The notes under the pieces are model-generated. The model was not told the origin of the DNA. It worked only from the letters and a program-made list of their open reading frames with translations, and did no database searches. Shown here one piece after another: positions 5,223 to 18,359 of a DNA stretch of 20,258 bases. A program made the position numbers and the translations under genes. Numbering within the stretch: the first letter of the stretch is position 1; the number at the start of each line of letters is the position of its first letter. Source of the stretch: a virus; IMG/VR virus record IMGVR_UViG_3300032278_000159, positions 1 to 20,258 of that record. One strand, written 5' to 3'.

Positions 5223-8200
5223 CTAACGAGCATCCTGCTCTGCCAAGAACTGCTGCACTTCCTGTCGACTTCCCGCACCTGCCAGGCCACGCTGCAACCG
5301 CCAGGCCATGTAAGTCCTCAGCCACCCCTGCCGGTCTGCGCTAAAGACGTTCTCTCGCTGCTTATCTGTCTTAGCCATCCCTAGGGCTATTGCCTTGCCC
5401 CACAATTGTTGGGCATTGATGGATTGGCGAGGGGTGCCGAATGTACGGGCTGCCGGATTGCCCTCCAGGTACTGCCATCTCTCTTGTGCGTTCGTGACCC
5501 TACCCCGGGCATTCCGCAGAGTCGCAGGCATACCAGCGCGCCCCTCATAGGCGCGTTCCTCAGTCTGTGTCAGGGGCTGGATAAAGAATGGGGAGGTTAT
5601 CCCGAGAGCGAAACGGCGGGCTCTTTCCTCCCCTACCTGCCGGTCAGCGTCCATATAAATCTGACTACTGGGATTATTCTTAGCAGCCTCGTAGTCTCGA
5701 TGCCGGGCTTGACCTGTCACTTCTATGGACATCTCATCGATCCGCTTCTCGCGGGCATACTCACGGGGCGAAAACGACTCGATATTACTGGCTTCTCGAC
5801 CGATGAGGCCAGCCCCCGCCCTCTGGGCACCTACGGCAAGATTCCTTACCAACGCCTCTGGTTCTTTTCCTGTAGCAGCCTCGATTCCCCCTGAGAAACG
5901 CAGCATCGTCGGATAGTAAGCCCGATCACCCATTAGCCCAAGAGCATTCATACCGTACTGATGCAAGGGGAAGGTGCTGAAGCCGAAGCCCGATGCGACA
6001 TTAAGCCCCTTCTCAAGCTCCGAATCACCCCGATAGGATGGCTGGATCCCTGAAAACGGCAATACCGCACCTACTGGGTTGAAGTACCCCTTAGACGGTC
6101 GGCCCATCGCCTGGGTAGCTATCCAGGATCCAAGCGTGCCAGCGTTTACCATATTCTTAAAGCGTGGCGGCAAGTCCTTGGTATCCTCGTCGGATAGTGT
6201 CATGTACCGGCTCAGTGCAAGAATCCAACCAGGATGCTCTGATAGGGTATCGACCCAGAACGGTAGCGCTCTCTTCGGCCAGATGAAGAACGGCGATACG
6301 TAGCGCATCATCTCCTCAAAGTTATCGGTCTTGGCGTAGTCGAAGTTGATCTCGGCAGACCTCGCGTAACCAGCTTCTTGCGCTTCCCGCAACTGAGCAG
6401 CCCAGAAGTTTTGCACCCTACGAATCGTATCTGCGTCAGCGCCGTTTAACCTCAGGAGGGTTTGCATACTGGCTGCACTAACCTGCCCATCCTGGCGTAC
6501 TACCTCGGCAATCAAGTCTGCTTTACCACCAGCACCACCCTGGATTATCGGCGTCTCAAGGGCTCTAACATTATCTAATAGCAGCAAAATATTATCGGCT
6601 CGATCAGGGGGTATCAGAGGACCTGCAGCTGCCATAGCACCCTTAAGTGCAGCGCTGGATTCGGGTGTAGTAAATGCAAAGGCAAGAGGAGGCACGTTTA
6701 CTCGACTTACGAGATGCGAATCTTCGAGTATCCACTTCGTTAAGAGCCTCTTAGATTTGGCTATCTTTAGCATCGACTGTACCAATGGCGCCGTTAGCTC
6801 AGTCAGGGGCGGGGGTAGGGCTCGCGACGGTTCCCCGAGCTTCTCAACAAGTCTCTCTGCTATCCCTTTGATACGGCCCAAGTGCGCTTCCTGCACACGG
6901 TCAACTTTAAATTCCGTACCCTGCCGAAGGGCTCTCCCAATTGTGGAGATAATCTCGTCCTTTGCGAAGGCTGCTGCAATAACATATATTTGCTCGTCGG
7001 AAGCATACCGTATTGCATCAGAACGCAGGAAGTCGAGTACCTGCCTAGGGGTTCGGTACATTACCTGGTACTGCTTGCCCTTTACAAATGCGGCGTCACT
7101 TATGTGACCACTGTCGCGGAGCTGTCGGAGTGGGTCGCCTGGGAACTCCTCAGTAGATACCGGGCTGACCTCTCCCACAGGGGAACGACCTTCACCCTCC
7201 AATCTCACTCGACTGGCGTCCGCGTGCGGCGTAGATTTGCCTAGATCTTTATGAAACTGTTTAATTACCGCCTCTGTTGGGCTTTCCAGATTTGCGGCAT
7301 CTTTTTCTAATTGCCTAGCTTCTTTTTCTAATATCCTGGCTTGCGCTTTAGAGAGGTCGCCAACTCTTCTGGCAGCTCGTGCGGCATCTCGTTCTGCAAG
7401 CTTGGCAACGTGTTCCACGTCCAATTGTGCAAGACGGCCTTGCTGCCGAAGCGAAGAAGGCGGGTACCCCGGGGTACCAGGCCCCTGAGTGAGCGTGGCT
7501 GCAGTAGGTATCCGGAAGGATGATGTCACTCCCCGCCCAGGCGGAGGTGGCCTGGGCGGGGGAAGTTGGGTCCAGACATCTGGCTCGTCCAGATACTTAA
7601 CCAGGAGATCTTTCGCAATATCCATATGTTCAGTGACGCCTACCTGCCAGGAGGTAAGTCGGGCAGTTGATTCAATTACGCGGAAGAAGAGCTTATTAGC
7701 CGCAATATAGGTAGGGGCTGCTATTGCATTAACTGCACCAAGCGCCGCGCCTACAGGCCCAGCACCAGCACCCAGGAGCGCTCCTATAGCGCTTCGGGCC
7801 ATCCAACCGCCTGGGAGTCTCCCCATCGAAGTTGACTCTTGTCCCTGGCGAATCAAGTCCTTAATCAGGTCGACGGTAGAGCGATGTTGTGCTGGGTTGA
7901 GGATCTCACCCTGCTTGTCGAGTACATTTACAGCCCCAGGAAGGTCGGATACAGCTGCCGACAAACTTCCGCCCTCTGTGGCAGAAGGATGCGGGCGGTT
8001 GATGCCCATCTTCCCCGCAAACTCCCTGACCGATGCGGGAGCGCGAACATCACCTGTCTGTACCATCTCCCGGAACGTGCTAACAAAATTGCGAACAAGT
8101 ATATCTGGCGGTATGCCTCGTACGGCGCTCATCAAAATGATACCGAGGCCATTACGCTCGTGGAATCCAAGCGAGACTATAGCTTGTTCACGCCAGGCGG

Positions 8201-9593
8201 CTGAATAGAGGCGAAATAGATTGCGTTTTTCCTTAAATAAATCGCCAGCCTCAGCAGCGATAATGCGTTTGCCGGCTGCATCCAGCAGATGATCATTCAT
8301 GACATCCGAACCAAAGCCGATCCACTTCTTAGTGATGTTCCTTGCCGCCTGGGTCGTCATCGGATCAGAGTTCGCGGCCATCCAATCAAGTAGAGCTTTC
8401 GAACTTCCGAACATCTCCGCGTCTGGCCGCACTCTCTCAAGGGGGCCAATGAACCCCTCCTTGAGAGAAACTTCATGGACCAACTCTTGCAGGGCCCTGC
8501 GGTCCTTGTACGCTAACGTAGCACCCTCACGAATACGCGGGTAAAATTCCGTCAGTGTCTCACGGGCCTTGGGACTAACGGCGTACATAAATGCTGAGGG
8601 CATCACATCTGGGTTATCCGGGAAGTCGAGTTCACCTGTGCGAGGATTAATAGGGTCCCAGCGTGGAGCCTCGGTTATTGGTGCTCCAGTGACTGGGTCG
8701 CGGTCCTCGATGAAAGACTTCGGCTCATCAAGGGCAAGTTGGATCCTGTCGGACTTAAGTGACAACAGATGCTCTTCGGACCGGGCAGCAGGTCGGAGAG
8801 CCTTGGGCCAGCTCTCTGGCAACTTCGCTGTCTGACCATAGGCCCATCTCCCGAGCTTGAAAGGCTGCTCAATAGGGGCAGCGGCTATCTTGGTAAAGAC
8901 GTCCTCAGCCTTCTGTGCTATAACGGCTGATTTTGCCAAGGCTGGCTCTGCTTTAGCTAGCTCGGATATTACGCCCCACTCAGTTTTTTGAGCTATCTTG
9001 GGCGCGGCTCTAGCTAGCATAGATGCCCCTTTAAGCGCACGAGGTGCTAACCCATACCCCAAATAACTGGCGGGATCGGAGGCAGTATCAATCATGAACT
9101 GCCCCCAGGGGTCTTTCTCAGCCAGGAAGTTGATTGCAGCACGACTACCCTGGCGGTCTAGAATCCGCTGGGCCTGATCAAGATCGTCTTTCTGCGTTTT
9201 ATACTCAGCGTAGGAAAGCTCTTTTCGGGTCAGTCCCAACGCCTCATATATTCCTAATGTGTCATAGACCGGGAAGCCACCAACAGTTGTGCGCTTCGGC
9301 CTCGCCGTACCTGGTGGAGTGGGTCGATCTCGCTCAAGACGACGCTGTCCCTTTAGAATCCTTGCCTCAGGGGAGACCCCTTGCAGTGCCAAATGCGGTG
9401 TATCTTTCGCCCCTGCCTGCACTTGTCGGGGGCCTGCCTGGGTGTAGGCATCGATTGCGCGCATGAGGACGTTGCCGGCCGTACCCAGTGTCCCAATGGG
9501 GTCGCGAAGGGGTTTTATTATATCGTCAGGGGTGACCAGGTCTTTGAGGGCAAACTCTTTGAACCACTGCTTCTCTAGAGAATGTTGAGGCAT
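5223..9593 (-). CDS. Giant internal virion / DNA-ejection-like protein (1456 aa)
   Basis: The ATG at 9593 directly abuts the TAA of the transglycosylase gene (TAAATG). Residues 1-595 are mixed helical, with a DPASYLGYGLAPRALKG motif near 173-189. Residues 600-632 are a Gly/Ala-rich hydrophobic stretch (IGALLGAGAGPVGAALGAV) that could insert in a membrane. Residues 677-712 are a Pro/Gly linker, 713-785 a charged coiled-coil-like region, and about 800-1456 a second helical part. Residues 1084-1121 contain FDY...PFFIWPKRALPFWVD...HP, a motif style I associate with large polyvalent phage proteins and ejection proteins. Size, membrane-like stretch and position after a transglycosylase fit an internal virion protein injected with DNA. 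No catalytic site is recognised. The call is inference. Confidence 0.65.
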   Translation of the reverse strand: MPQHSLEKQWFKEFALKDLVTPDDIIKPLRDPIGTLGTAGNVLMRAIDAYTQAGPRQVQAGAKDTPHLALQGVSPEARILKGQRRLERDRPTPPGTARPKRTTVGGFPVYDTLGIYEALGLTRKELSYAEYKTQKDDLDQAQRILDRQGSRAAINFLAEKDPWGQFMIDTASDPASYLGYGLAPRALKGASMLARAAPKIAQKTEWGVISELAKAEPALAKSAVIAQKAEDVFTKIAAAPIEQPFKLGRWAYGQTAKLPESWPKALRPAARSEEHLLSLKSDRIQLALDEPKSFIEDRDPVTGAPITEAPRWDPINPRTGELDFPDNPDVMPSAFMYAVSPKARETLTEFYPRIREGATLAYKDRRALQELVHEVSLKEGFIGPLERVRPDAEMFGSSKALLDWMAANSDPMTTQAARNITKKWIGFGSDVMNDHLLDAAGKRIIAAEAGDLFKEKRNLFRLYSAAWREQAIVSLGFHERNGLGIILMSAVRGIPPDILVRNFVSTFREMVQTGDVRAPASVREFAGKMGINRPHPSATEGGSLSAAVSDLPGAVNVLDKQGEILNPAQHRSTVDLIKDLIRQGQESTSMGRLPGGWMARSAIGALLGAGAGPVGAALGAVNAIAAPTYIAANKLFFRVIESTARLTSWQVGVTEHMDIAKDLLVKYLDEPDVWTQLPPPRPPPPGRGVTSSFRIPTAATLTQGPGTPGYPPSSLRQQGRLAQLDVEHVAKLAERDAARAARRVGDLSKAQARILEKEARQLEKDAANLESPTEAVIKQFHKDLGKSTPHADASRVRLEGEGRSPVGEVSPVSTEEFPGDPLRQLRDSGHISDAAFVKGKQYQVMYRTPRQVLDFLRSDAIRYASDEQIYVIAAAFAKDEIISTIGRALRQGTEFKVDRVQEAHLGRIKGIAERLVEKLGEPSRALPPPLTELTAPLVQSMLKIAKSKRLLTKWILEDSHLVSRVNVPPLAFAFTTPESSAALKGAMAAAGPLIPPDRADNILLLLDNVRALETPIIQGGAGGKADLIAEVVRQDGQVSAASMQTLLRLNGADADTIRRVQNFWAAQLREAQEAGYARSAEINFDYAKTDNFEEMMRYVSPFFIWPKRALPFWVDTLSEHPGWILALSRYMTLSDEDTKDLPPRFKNMVNAGTLGSWIATQAMGRPSKGYFNPVGAVLPFSGIQPSYRGDSELEKGLNVASGFGFSTFPLHQYGMNALGLMGDRAYYPTMLRFSGGIEAATGKEPEALVRNLAVGAQRAGAGLIGREASNIESFSPREYAREKRIDEMSIEVTGQARHRDYEAAKNNPSSQIYMDADRQVGEERARRFALGITSPFFIQPLTQTEERAYEGRAGMPATLRNARGRVTNAQERWQYLEGNPAARTFGTPRQSINAQQLWGKAIALGMAKTDKQRENVFSADRQGWLRTYMAWRLQRGLAGAGSRQEVQQFLAEQDAR
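7463..7478. repeat. 16-bp perfect palindrome inside the giant gene
   Basis: GGTACCCCGGGGTACC reads the same on both strands. It encodes part of the Pro/Gly linker (around GTPGY) of the 1456-aa protein. With the inverted repeat at 7531-7561 it marks the linker as structurally unusual DNA. Confidence 0.7.
7531..7561. repeat. 11-bp GC-rich inverted repeat inside the giant gene
   Basis: CCCCGCCCAGG (7531-7541) and CCTGGGCGGGG (7551-7561) are perfectly complementary with a nine-base spacer, predicting a very stable mRNA hairpin. It encodes the Pro-rich run PPPRPPPPGRG between the two halves of the giant protein. Part of the symmetry may follow from Pro (CCN) and Gly/Arg codon composition. Confidence 0.65.
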
Positions 9594-16041: not shown

Positions 16042-17544
16042 CTATACCATACCCTCCCAATCAGCTACAACTCGGGGGATACTGTAGAACTCCTCTACTT
16101 TCCTGGGCTTAATGTTCACCGCCATAAACTCTACAGCAGTACGAAAATGGCTTGTCCAGTCGTGAACCGGCCTGGACGGGGCAGTAGTCGACTGGCTATT
16201 GGGGTTTCGGTCAGGGAAGCGAGAGTTTTTCAGCGCCTCATCCACTGCAACACATTCATAGTGGATACCCTCGATCTTCCGTATAAATAATTGAGTCGTT
16301 TTGTACCGATCATCGAATTTATTCACATCAGGCCGGGTATTTATAGTCACTCCTAGCTTCTTTAACTCACCGATAGGTGACGTACCCGTAACCTGGTTGC
16401 GCTGCTTGCCGGCCGGGTCACCATAGTTGATAGAAGGCCCCCATCCGGCGACTTTAGTGATGAAATCCAGGTCATCCTGGGTATAACTAAACTTCGTACC
16501 AGAAGGAACTTCACCAGTAACGAAGGGAGCATAGAAATCTATGACCTTGGAGTCATTCTGGTAGTAATCGATGATTCGATAGAACCCATTAGCGACATTT
16601 AGCTGCCAGAAGATAAGCGCAGTGGGGTCGGGGTTGTATCCAAAGTCCCAGGAAGCATAGAGAGGCCAGCCGGGTTGGTAAGGAAAGACTCCTCTGGGAA
16701 CATTATCCCACTCTGGGTAGACTCGACCTTTAATCGAGCGGTCGTAGGATATATCAAGCTCCTGAGAGACCTCCTCCTCGGACCGTCTGAGCTTCTCATT
16801 CTCGTACCACTCTTGCGATTTATTCGGATGCTTAGACCAGTGGATCGTTCTGACCTGGATCCGGCCTGAGTTACGTAAATCGGCAAAGAAGTTCCTACCA
16901 TTGGGGGTAGACACAACAATCCTGCAAGGCGACGAGTCAGCGGTAGCAAGCCAGGCACTCTCCGCCCACTCCCAGAAGGCAAACTCATCGAGAAGGATAA
17001 TAGCAACACGGGACTGGCGGCTGAAGTGTGGGTTAGTGGACTCACCTGAGATCGTATTCCCATTAACCGGGTTCACAATCTTCATAAACGTCTTATTCTT
17101 CTTGGGATCGAAGGCAACGTGCTGACCGAGGGCGTTTTCCCCTTTAGGCCAGAAAGTGGGATCCATATGCTCAATCATGTACATAAGCATCCCAAAGAGG
17201 GACTTCATCGTACCATCATCGACGTAGGGCTCTTTACGAGAGCCAATCAGGGCCTGGAAGCCCGGTTGGAAGCGCCAGAGCCAGACTATATAGGCAAGGA
17301 TGGTATAGGTAACACCCATATCTCTGGACTTCTCAATAAGGCCATCAGCGGGTGTCTGGAAGAGGCTATGAAGCCACTGGACAAGCTCGACCTGATAGTC
17401 ATATAGCTCAAAGGGAAGGTCGTAGGGAGCTATTCGTGGGTCGAACGTCTTGAGGAAGCTAGAGATGAAATATGCTGGGTCAACAGCGGCTCTTTGTAGC
17501 TTCTGGGCCTGTCTAACTGCATCCAGGGTGATACCAGAGATCAT
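16042..17544 (-). CDS. terL: Terminase large subunit: packaging ATPase and nuclease (500 aa)
   Basis: ATG at 17544. ATPase domain: a Q-like motif ELYDYQ at 46-51, a deviant Walker A EKSRDMGVTY at 71-80 (Lys72 before the loop instead of GK[ST]), Walker B IILLDE at 182-187 with acidic Asp186/Glu187, and the coupling motif VVSTPNG near 210-216. Nuclease domain (RNase H-like): first acidic residue Asp300 in YASWDFGYNPDPT, second Asp376 in YGDPAG, third Asp462 in HDWTSHFRTAVEF. This is the complete two-domain organisation of phage large terminases, which pump DNA into the prohead through the portal and cut the concatemer. The length is normal. The neighbours (small terminase upstream, portal downstream) agree. 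The distance from the small terminase, about 1.85 kb, is unusually large and is filled by accessory genes and a structured RNA region. Confidence 0.95.
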   Translation of the reverse strand: MISGITLDAVRQAQKLQRAAVDPAYFISSFLKTFDPRIAPYDLPFELYDYQVELVQWLHSLFQTPADGLIEKSRDMGVTYTILAYIVWLWRFQPGFQALIGSRKEPYVDDGTMKSLFGMLMYMIEHMDPTFWPKGENALGQHVAFDPKKNKTFMKIVNPVNGNTISGESTNPHFSRQSRVAIILLDEFAFWEWAESAWLATADSSPCRIVVSTPNGRNFFADLRNSGRIQVRTIHWSKHPNKSQEWYENEKLRRSEEEVSQELDISYDRSIKGRVYPEWDNVPRGVFPYQPGWPLYASWDFGYNPDPTALIFWQLNVANGFYRIIDYYQNDSKVIDFYAPFVTGEVPSGTKFSYTQDDLDFITKVAGWGPSINYGDPAGKQRNQVTGTSPIGELKKLGVTINTRPDVNKFDDRYKTTQLFIRKIEGIHYECVAVDEALKNSRFPDRNPNSQSTTAPSRPVHDWTSHFRTAVEFMAVNIKPRKVEEFYSIPRVVADWEGMV

Positions 17545-17568: not shown

Positions 17569-17679
17569 TTACTTTTTCGGCTTCTTCTTCGACGACGAAC
17601 TGGCTTTCTTTACTGCGGCAGCGGCCGCTTTCTTGCCGGCTGCATCGTAACTAAACCGCTTAGAACCTACCTTCGGCAT
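17569..17679 (-). CDS. 36-aa Lys/Ala-rich peptide (MPKVGxKxF type)
   Basis: A short minus-strand frame from ATG at 17679 to TAA at 17571-17569, with AGGAG six to seven bases upstream. The product begins MPKVGSKRFSYDAAGKKAAA and ends in a Ser/Lys run. Very short phage peptides of this style (MPKVG, a Lys/aromatic pair, then AAGKKAA) recur among head-gene clusters as far as I know, which with the ribosome site makes a real gene likely. It is strongly basic, probably disordered, and may bind DNA or a virion protein. It lies 24 bases before terL. Confidence 0.65.
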   Translation of the reverse strand: MPKVGSKRFSYDAAGKKAAAAAVKKASSSSKKKPKK

Positions 17680-17723
17680 TTCACGCTCCTGTAGTCCATA
17701 TAACTAGCATTTTGTTGAGCAGC

Positions 17724-17761
17724 GGGGGAGAAAGAGGAGGTCGAGGCTCCAATGCTCCCCC
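17724..17761 (-). promoter_or_regulatory. Two-part GC-rich hairpin upstream of the 36-aa gene
   Basis: GGGGGAG (17724-17730) pairs with CTCCCCC (17755-17761), and inside it GGAG pairs with CTCC around GTCGAGG, separated by small internal loops. On the minus strand no U tract follows (GCTGCTCAAC), so it is not a typical terminator. It could end or protect the upstream structured RNA, or act in the mRNA leader. Confidence 0.45.
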
Positions 17762-17795
17762 TTATAACCTGCGACCCCTCCTCGCCGCGAGTTAG

Positions 17796-17917
17796 GGTCG
17801 GCGGCTGCGCCCGGACTCGAACCGGGACCTCCGTGGGCATCCCTTCTCCACACAGCCAAGTGGTCGACCCCCCAATCATGACCCACGTCAATATTTGGGT
17901 GTTGCTCGTGGCCGACC
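17796..17917 (-). ncRNA. Candidate structured RNA upstream of terL
   Basis: On the minus strand GGTCGGC (17917-17911) pairs perfectly with GCCGACC (17802-17796), closing 122 nt. Inside, CACG (17910-17907) can pair with CGTG (17887-17884), GGTC (17883-17880) with GACC (17865-17862), and GGCTGTG (17857-17851) with CGCAGCC (17809-17803), which encloses a T-arm. A TATAAT at 17929-17924 would place a transcription start near 17917, exactly at the first closing stem, but no convincing -35 box is seen. The gap codes for nothing. The helices are read by eye; short ones may be chance. Function unknown. Confidence 0.4.
17802..17857 (-). pseudogene. tRNA-like element: acceptor stem and T-arm, D-arm/anticodon arm defective
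   Basis: A 7-bp acceptor-like stem (GGCTGTG with CGCAGCC, one G-U pair) encloses a perfect T-arm (CCCGG-TTCGAGT-CCGGG, 17826-17810 on the minus strand) directly followed by the 3' acceptor strand, then G as discriminator and CCG in place of CCA. Only 24 bases lie between acceptor and T-arm, where a normal tRNA has about 41, and they do not form a 5-bp anticodon stem. It looks like a tRNA with an internal deletion, or a tRNA-mimic domain of a larger RNA. Confidence 0.5.
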
Positions 17918-17924
17918 GCACTTA

Positions 17925-18359
17925 TTATACCTCTTTCCCATCCCAACGCTTTGAGCCATCGGGGGTAACGAGACCCTGTGCAGCGAACCTTTCCTTCAGA
18001 TCCTCCTCAGTCTCATCATAATTTATGTCTAGCCACTCCACCGCCCAGAAATGGTAGTCGGTAGTCACCTCATTATCATCGAACCGCTCAACCATGCCAT
18101 CGACCCGTTCAAGATTAAAGAACTTATTGCGCCCATTTGAGCGTTTCTCCAGATAATCTCTAACCAGACGCTCAGGGGTCGGTCGTAGATGAAAAATGTC
18201 TGGGCCTACCCGAGCCGGGAACCAGAGGCCACCATAATGGTATTTCTCTGTGCATTTAGGCTGATCTGGATGTTCCGCATCAGGCCCCGTCTTGCATACG
18301 TGTGTAATAGGCGGCGTGTGGGTCGTGCTGCGCTCACTAGAAAGTACGCTATTACCCAT
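17925..18359 (-). CDS. Unknown protein with N-terminal Cys/His residues (144 aa)
   Basis: ATG at 18359 overlaps the stop of the upstream gene by eight bases, supporting both frames. The N-terminal part has His20, Cys22, His30, Cys36 and His41 in a loop-rich setting, which might bind a metal. The rest is charged alpha/beta (RPTPERLVRDYLEKRSNGRN, TTDYHFWAVEWLDINYDETE, EDLKERFAAQGL). No family is recognised. It belongs to the overlapping accessory gene group between the two terminase genes, and its stop codon lies within a TATAAT-like sequence leading into the structured gap. Confidence 0.65.
   Translation of the reverse strand: MGNSVLSSERSTTHTPPITHVCKTGPDAEHPDQPKCTEKYHYGGLWFPARVGPDIFHLRPTPERLVRDYLEKRSNGRNKFFNLERVDGMVERFDDNEVTTDYHFWAVEWLDINYDETEEDLKERFAAQGLVTPDGSKRWDGKEV

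Follow-up and report, generated by a model that had tools for sequence, protein, structure and literature searches.

An anticodon-arm-less tRNA-like element upstream of a phage terminase gene and a recurring class of armless phage tRNAs

Results

A tRNA-like element in the gap ahead of terL

The window analysed here, a stretch of 20,258 nucleotides from IMG/VR virus record IMGVR_UViG_3300032278_000159, carries on its minus strand the gene for the large terminase subunit (terL, 16042-17544, start at 17544), whose product is assigned to ordinary terminase families (PHROG 2 and 5989). Upstream of it, open reading frames and sequence delimit a non-coding gap of 245 nt (17924-17680, minus strand), the length given in an earlier note on this DNA. 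The gap is bordered on one side by the stop codon of a reading frame without an assigned family (17925-18359, minus strand) and on the other by a Lys/Ala-rich frame of 36 codons with a Shine-Dalgarno-like GGAG (17569-17679, minus strand). This small frame separates the gap from terL, so the two do not adjoin as the note had stated; the frame itself is absent from the gene list owing to a 60-aa cut-off. The surrounding late genes (TerS to TerL) are co-oriented, and the gap would sit within their common transcript. The separate transcription start proposed earlier from a TATAAT is weakened, as this motif overlaps the stop codon of the upstream frame and a promoter scan returned no site there. 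Elsewhere in the window, positions 5223-9593 (minus strand) encode a 1456-aa protein without a Pfam family and without a match among annotated phages.

Within the gap lies a 56-nt element (17802-17857, minus strand) that reads GGCTGTG-TGGAGAAGGGATGCCCACGGAGGT-CCCGG-TTCGAGT-CCGGG-CGCAGCC-G, with the discriminator G at 17802. The two acceptor strands, GGCTGTG (17851-17857) and CGCAGCC (17803-17809), form 7 of 7 pairs including one G-U, and the T-arm (17810-17826) has a perfect 5-bp stem with a consensus T-loop, so that all 12 acceptor and T-stem pairs, as well as the T-loop, are intact. Both helices had been recognised before. The element thus has the 7-bp acceptor stem and the TTCRA-loop T-arm of a canonical tRNA and lacks the anticodon arm with its 7-nt loop. 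This arm is replaced by the linker CACGGAGGT (17827-17835), which in the linker list resembles CACGGTGC of the phage locus L330, and the spacing between acceptor and T-arm is 24 nt as compared to ∼41 nt in tRNA. A D-loop-like sequence, AGAAGGGA (17840-17847), retains A14, R15, G18G19 and A21 in alignments A5 and R2, in which the D-stem is vestigial with its 5′ strand ∼3 nt short. CCA is not encoded. The earlier idea of a tRNA-like head, or of a tRNA with an internal deletion, therefore holds up well, the anticodon arm being missing and the D-stem eroded.

Three local hairpins in the gap stand out from shuffled sequences (z −2.4 to −2.8). One (GGTCGGCC...GGTCGACC, 17862-17917, −24.6 kcal/mol, z −2.4) ends 4 nt before the element, a second (CGACCCT...AGGGGTCG, 17772-17800, −18.1 kcal/mol, z −2.8) begins 2 nt past it, and the third is the distal GC-rich hairpin noticed previously (GGGGGAG...CTCCCCC, 17724-17761, −19.2 kcal/mol, z −2.6). 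The gap as a whole folds no better than its shuffles (z −0.55). A 7-bp stem that had been taken to close the structure, GGTCGGC (17917-17911) with GCCGACC (17802-17796), can indeed be read from the minus strand, but it competes with a local 8-bp hairpin formed by GGTCGGCC and GGTCGACC.

The element exceeds chance and is tRNA-derived

ARAGORN at standard settings calls nothing in the window. At relaxed settings it proposes a poor tRNA-Ser and a tRNA-Pro interrupted by a 117-nt intron, both rejected because other loci give comparable weak matches. The Rfam tRNA model (RF00005), run on a 151-nt stretch, matches the element with 27.4 bits (E 0.0004), with the anticodon arm deleted in the match and the score below the gathering threshold of 29 bits. 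Apart from tRNA and the tRNA-like mascRNA, no known Rfam family scores above background in the gap. The latter family (mascRNA-menRNA, RF01684, from MALAT1 and MEN-beta) shares the top half of a tRNA and a reduced anticodon region; it comprises 3′ ends of vertebrate lncRNAs, and with 23.7 bits against a cut-off of 42.5 the window element is analogous at most. Bacterial Y RNA also carries a tRNA-like module, and Rfam gave no match to it in the gap.

A T-arm of this quality occurs once in 696 kb of loci and not at all in 20 shuffles, and an exact search with the T-arm and acceptor sequences in viral and host genomes returned no match. Two models built from armless tRNAs with the window excluded (see below) match the window only at the element and over its full length: R1, from 7 RNAs, with E 1.4e-6, and the covariance model R2, from 44 RNAs, with 28.4 bits and E 1.4e-8. 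Three nucleotides of the D-stem are missing in the match. When ordinary tRNAs carry an insertion of 15-17 nt they score similarly with these models, so the score by itself shows tRNA ancestry; it is the absence of such an insertion that groups the window with the armless form. Together with the anatomy, these results confirm that the tRNA-like element is real and exceeds chance.

Armless tRNAs form a class found in dozens of unrelated phages

IMG/VR was scanned with a strict exact pattern consisting of a TAGCTCA D-arm, GGTARAGC, 10-13 nt and the T-arm GGTTCRANTCC, which replaced a looser pattern whose matches had included many partial ones. The scan returned 97 contigs with 78 unique sequences, where by our own estimate far fewer than one would be expected by chance. 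Since the acceptor was left out of the pattern, its pairing provides an unbiased test: at least 6 of 7 acceptor pairs form in register in 57 of the 78 unique sequences, as compared to 0-2 of the 78 at shifts of 1-4 nt. The RNAs of this set are 57-60 nt long, with linkers mostly of 8-9 nt, and the linker CTTGGGTC recurs in six armless tRNAs whose acceptors differ. RNAalifold, applied to 44 sequences preselected for at least 6 of 7 acceptor pairs, returned exactly a three-helix fold of acceptor, D and T stems, in which both bases have changed at 10 of the 16 pairs. In one close pair (L330 and L482, 93% identical), C1-G72 is swapped for G1-C72.

Armless tRNAs are thus a real class, present in dozens of unrelated phages. 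Well-formed members score above the cut-off of the Rfam tRNA model, which makes them a variant of tRNA and not a new kind of RNA. The class is easily missed, because programs that annotate tRNAs rely on finding an anticodon, and it is relevant to the purpose that tRNAs serve in phages. Searches of openly licensed literature turned up no account of phage tRNAs without an anticodon, though one may exist. The armless element is absent from three Streptomyces and Rhodococcus phages related to L330.

The window element has the size (56 nt, within the 55-60 nt of the class), the paired acceptor (7/7) and T-arm (5/5) and the short linker of a member. It lacks the 4-bp D-stem, and its three-helix fold is not close to the energy minimum: the tRNA-like fold has −18.6 kcal/mol, or −21.2 with a D-like stem, and lies 3-5 kcal/mol above the minimum of −24.1, whereas 45 of 52 class members are within 2 kcal/mol of theirs. 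The best reading is that it is a somewhat degenerate member at the weak end of the class.

The closest terminase relative carries another non-standard tRNA-like element

A TerL profile search identified 80 viral and 46 genome loci, and searches with the major capsid protein (MCP) and portal yielded no close relatives. The best TerL relative, L083 (47% identity), has a tRNA-like element (L083:3696-3773) 233 nt upstream of terL, with a 7/7 acceptor, a T-arm, an encoded CCA and a non-standard middle. ARAGORN at standard settings makes no call here either. In Rfam the L083 element scores best against the tRNA-like domain of tmRNA (RF00023), which likewise has an acceptor and T-arm and no D-stem; the score (35.6 bits) is below the cut-off of 47, and no tag reading frame was identified. 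In the lowest-energy fold the acceptor and T-arm are retained and one long hairpin takes the place of the rest. If their shared position reflects homology of the two elements, several acceptor and T-stem pairs would have changed on both sides with pairing kept. L083 also has a basic 59-aa reading frame at a place similar to that of the window's 36-codon frame.

Ordinary tRNAs upstream of terL, which the earlier note had held would speak against its proposal, are found in some relatives (tRNA-Met in L163, tRNA-Gly in L153-155), so that this objection applies in part, the closest relative having a non-standard element. In most other TerL relatives, the 1.5 kb ahead of terL contains nothing tRNA-like, which indicates that the element is not a fixed part of the terminase module.

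Armless tRNAs beside head genes and GOLLD RNA

Several armless tRNAs lie at junctions of structural genes. The major head protein gene is just before the armless tRNA in L426 and L478; in L452 the scaffold gene precedes it and the major head gene follows; in L330 and L482 it is beside the gene after the capsid gene; and other neighbours are TerL (L436), head scaffolding (L485) and TerS (L460). Our impression is one of enrichment near head genes, with many neighbours having no known function. In L452 the junction of scaffold and major head genes also contains a match to abiF RNA (RF03085, L452:1866-1903), whose end lies 4 nt ahead of the armless tRNA. Hairpins upstream of armless tRNAs, such as the one before the window element, were considered as a speciality of the class and rejected, being no commoner than beside solitary ordinary tRNAs (p 0.12).

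In the streptococcal prophage L460 (around L460:6773-7223), the armless tRNA starts 3 nt past the end of a GOLLD RNA (RF02032). Related phages (L513-L517, around 1050-1300) have the same slot 3-10 nt after GOLLD, filled by variable tRNAs: tRNA-Ser in LYGO9 and phiGBSVK-D, tRNA-Phe in Javan565, a tRNA with a stop anticodon in Javan636 and an aberrant tRNA with a double T-arm in Javan577. That these occupants are interchangeable indicates that the decoding part is dispensable at this site and the tRNA shape is what is retained, and this is the best argument for a role in RNA processing. The window shares with these prophages the armless form and not the partner, as Rfam finds no GOLLD in the gap.

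Interpretation

A candidate RNA processing mark

The element is tRNA-derived and corresponds to the top half of a tRNA (acceptor stem, T-arm and a D-loop remnant). Armless tRNAs are unable to decode, and they retain the features recognised by RNase P, 3′-end enzymes and the CCA-adding enzyme. Known RNase P substrates include acceptor/T-stem-loop models, the phage M3 and C4 RNAs and mRNAs (PMC11143913; PMC4919922), and RNase P and RNase Z cleave the tRNA-like ends of MALAT1 and MEN-beta (PMC4919922). The phi80-induced M3 RNA and C4 RNA are small phage RNAs that host RNase P cuts, and an acceptor plus T-arm suffices for cleavage (PMC11143913); for the window, cleavage is a prediction. In the proposed scheme, host RNase P would cut at 17857/17858 and leave a hairpin, which could be protective, close to the 3′ end of the upstream mRNA, and a 3′ cut near 17802 would release the message for the small frame and terL with a new 5′ end. 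In this scheme the anatomy is observed, and all later steps, from transcription and cleavage to an influence on how terL is expressed, are inferred.

That the element belongs to the recurring phage class and acts within the late transcript as a processing mark for RNase P and RNase Z is the explanation we consider most likely, with confidence about evenly poised. In this form the regulatory role suggested earlier survives. A wider proposal is more doubtful and is offered tentatively: phages of many hosts may use armless tRNAs as portable RNase P/RNase Z punctuation in late operons and beside large RNAs such as GOLLD, with the window holding a divergent copy ahead of terL. A processing mark would explain why some phages keep non-decoding tRNA-like genes at junctions of capsid and terminase genes, and the tRNAs beside GOLLD would then have a testable explanation.

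Alternative explanations

The main alternative is decay, in which the anticodon arm was deleted from a phage tRNA at this site and the remainder is now an eroding, functionless pseudogene. The better alternative fold of the window copy makes this a serious rival, and we give it a substantial minority share of our belief. The D-stem is already gone, the lowest-energy fold is not tRNA-like, and some relatives have ordinary tRNAs upstream of terL (the tRNA-Met of L163 and tRNA-Gly of L153-155). Against decay, the T-loop and every one of the 12 pairs in acceptor and T-stem are intact, the armless form is shared by dozens of phages and shows compensatory changes, and L083 keeps its acceptor and T-arm with different pairs around a middle that is also non-standard.

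It is improbable, in our judgement, that the element is instead a tRNA mimic or decoy, a small RNA that would be charged or modified and would titrate either an enzyme acting on tRNAs or a host defence directed against them. Alanyl-tRNA synthetase does not need the anticodon, and G3-U70, typical of tRNA-Ala, is found in 11 of 52 armless tRNAs, the highest G-U count among the acceptor pairs, so that some members may be alanylated. The window has C3-G70, however, and a mimic does not predict placement beside late genes.

Still less probable is an attP site, in which a temperate phage would integrate by means of a host tRNA gene's 3′ portion that it carries. Such fragments are common in integrative elements (PMC9897764), but the 24-nt T-arm and acceptor sequence occurs in 0 of 84,980 species genomes, among which the true host may not be represented. 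The element is also inside the TerS-TerL structural gene block, no integrase was recognised among the reading frames tested, and the acceptor 5′ strand and D-loop are present besides the 3′ part.

A packaging RNA analogous to phi29 pRNA was raised in the earlier note by position and size, and proximity to terL and the ∼120 nt between the closing-stem strands speak for it. It has next to no probability, given a TerL of ordinary families in place of a phi29-type ATPase, no known pRNA fold and no matching Rfam family in the window, no conservation of the element beside terL in relatives, and the occurrence of the same class at many other gene junctions.

Other unusual tRNA-like genes

The phage of L090, another TerL relative, has two neighbouring tRNA-like genes elsewhere in its genome (L213:1284-1365 and 1501-1555). 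In one the anticodon arm is shrunken; the other, clean and 55 nt long, consists of acceptor, D-arm and T-arm and has no anticodon arm. A tRNA-Val-like gene ∼2 kb upstream of terL in L085 (L085:630-744) has an anticodon loop enlarged by ∼42 nt. The phage of L086, a 49.6-kb virus record (G004), has 28 tRNA matches, mostly clustered on the strand opposite terL.
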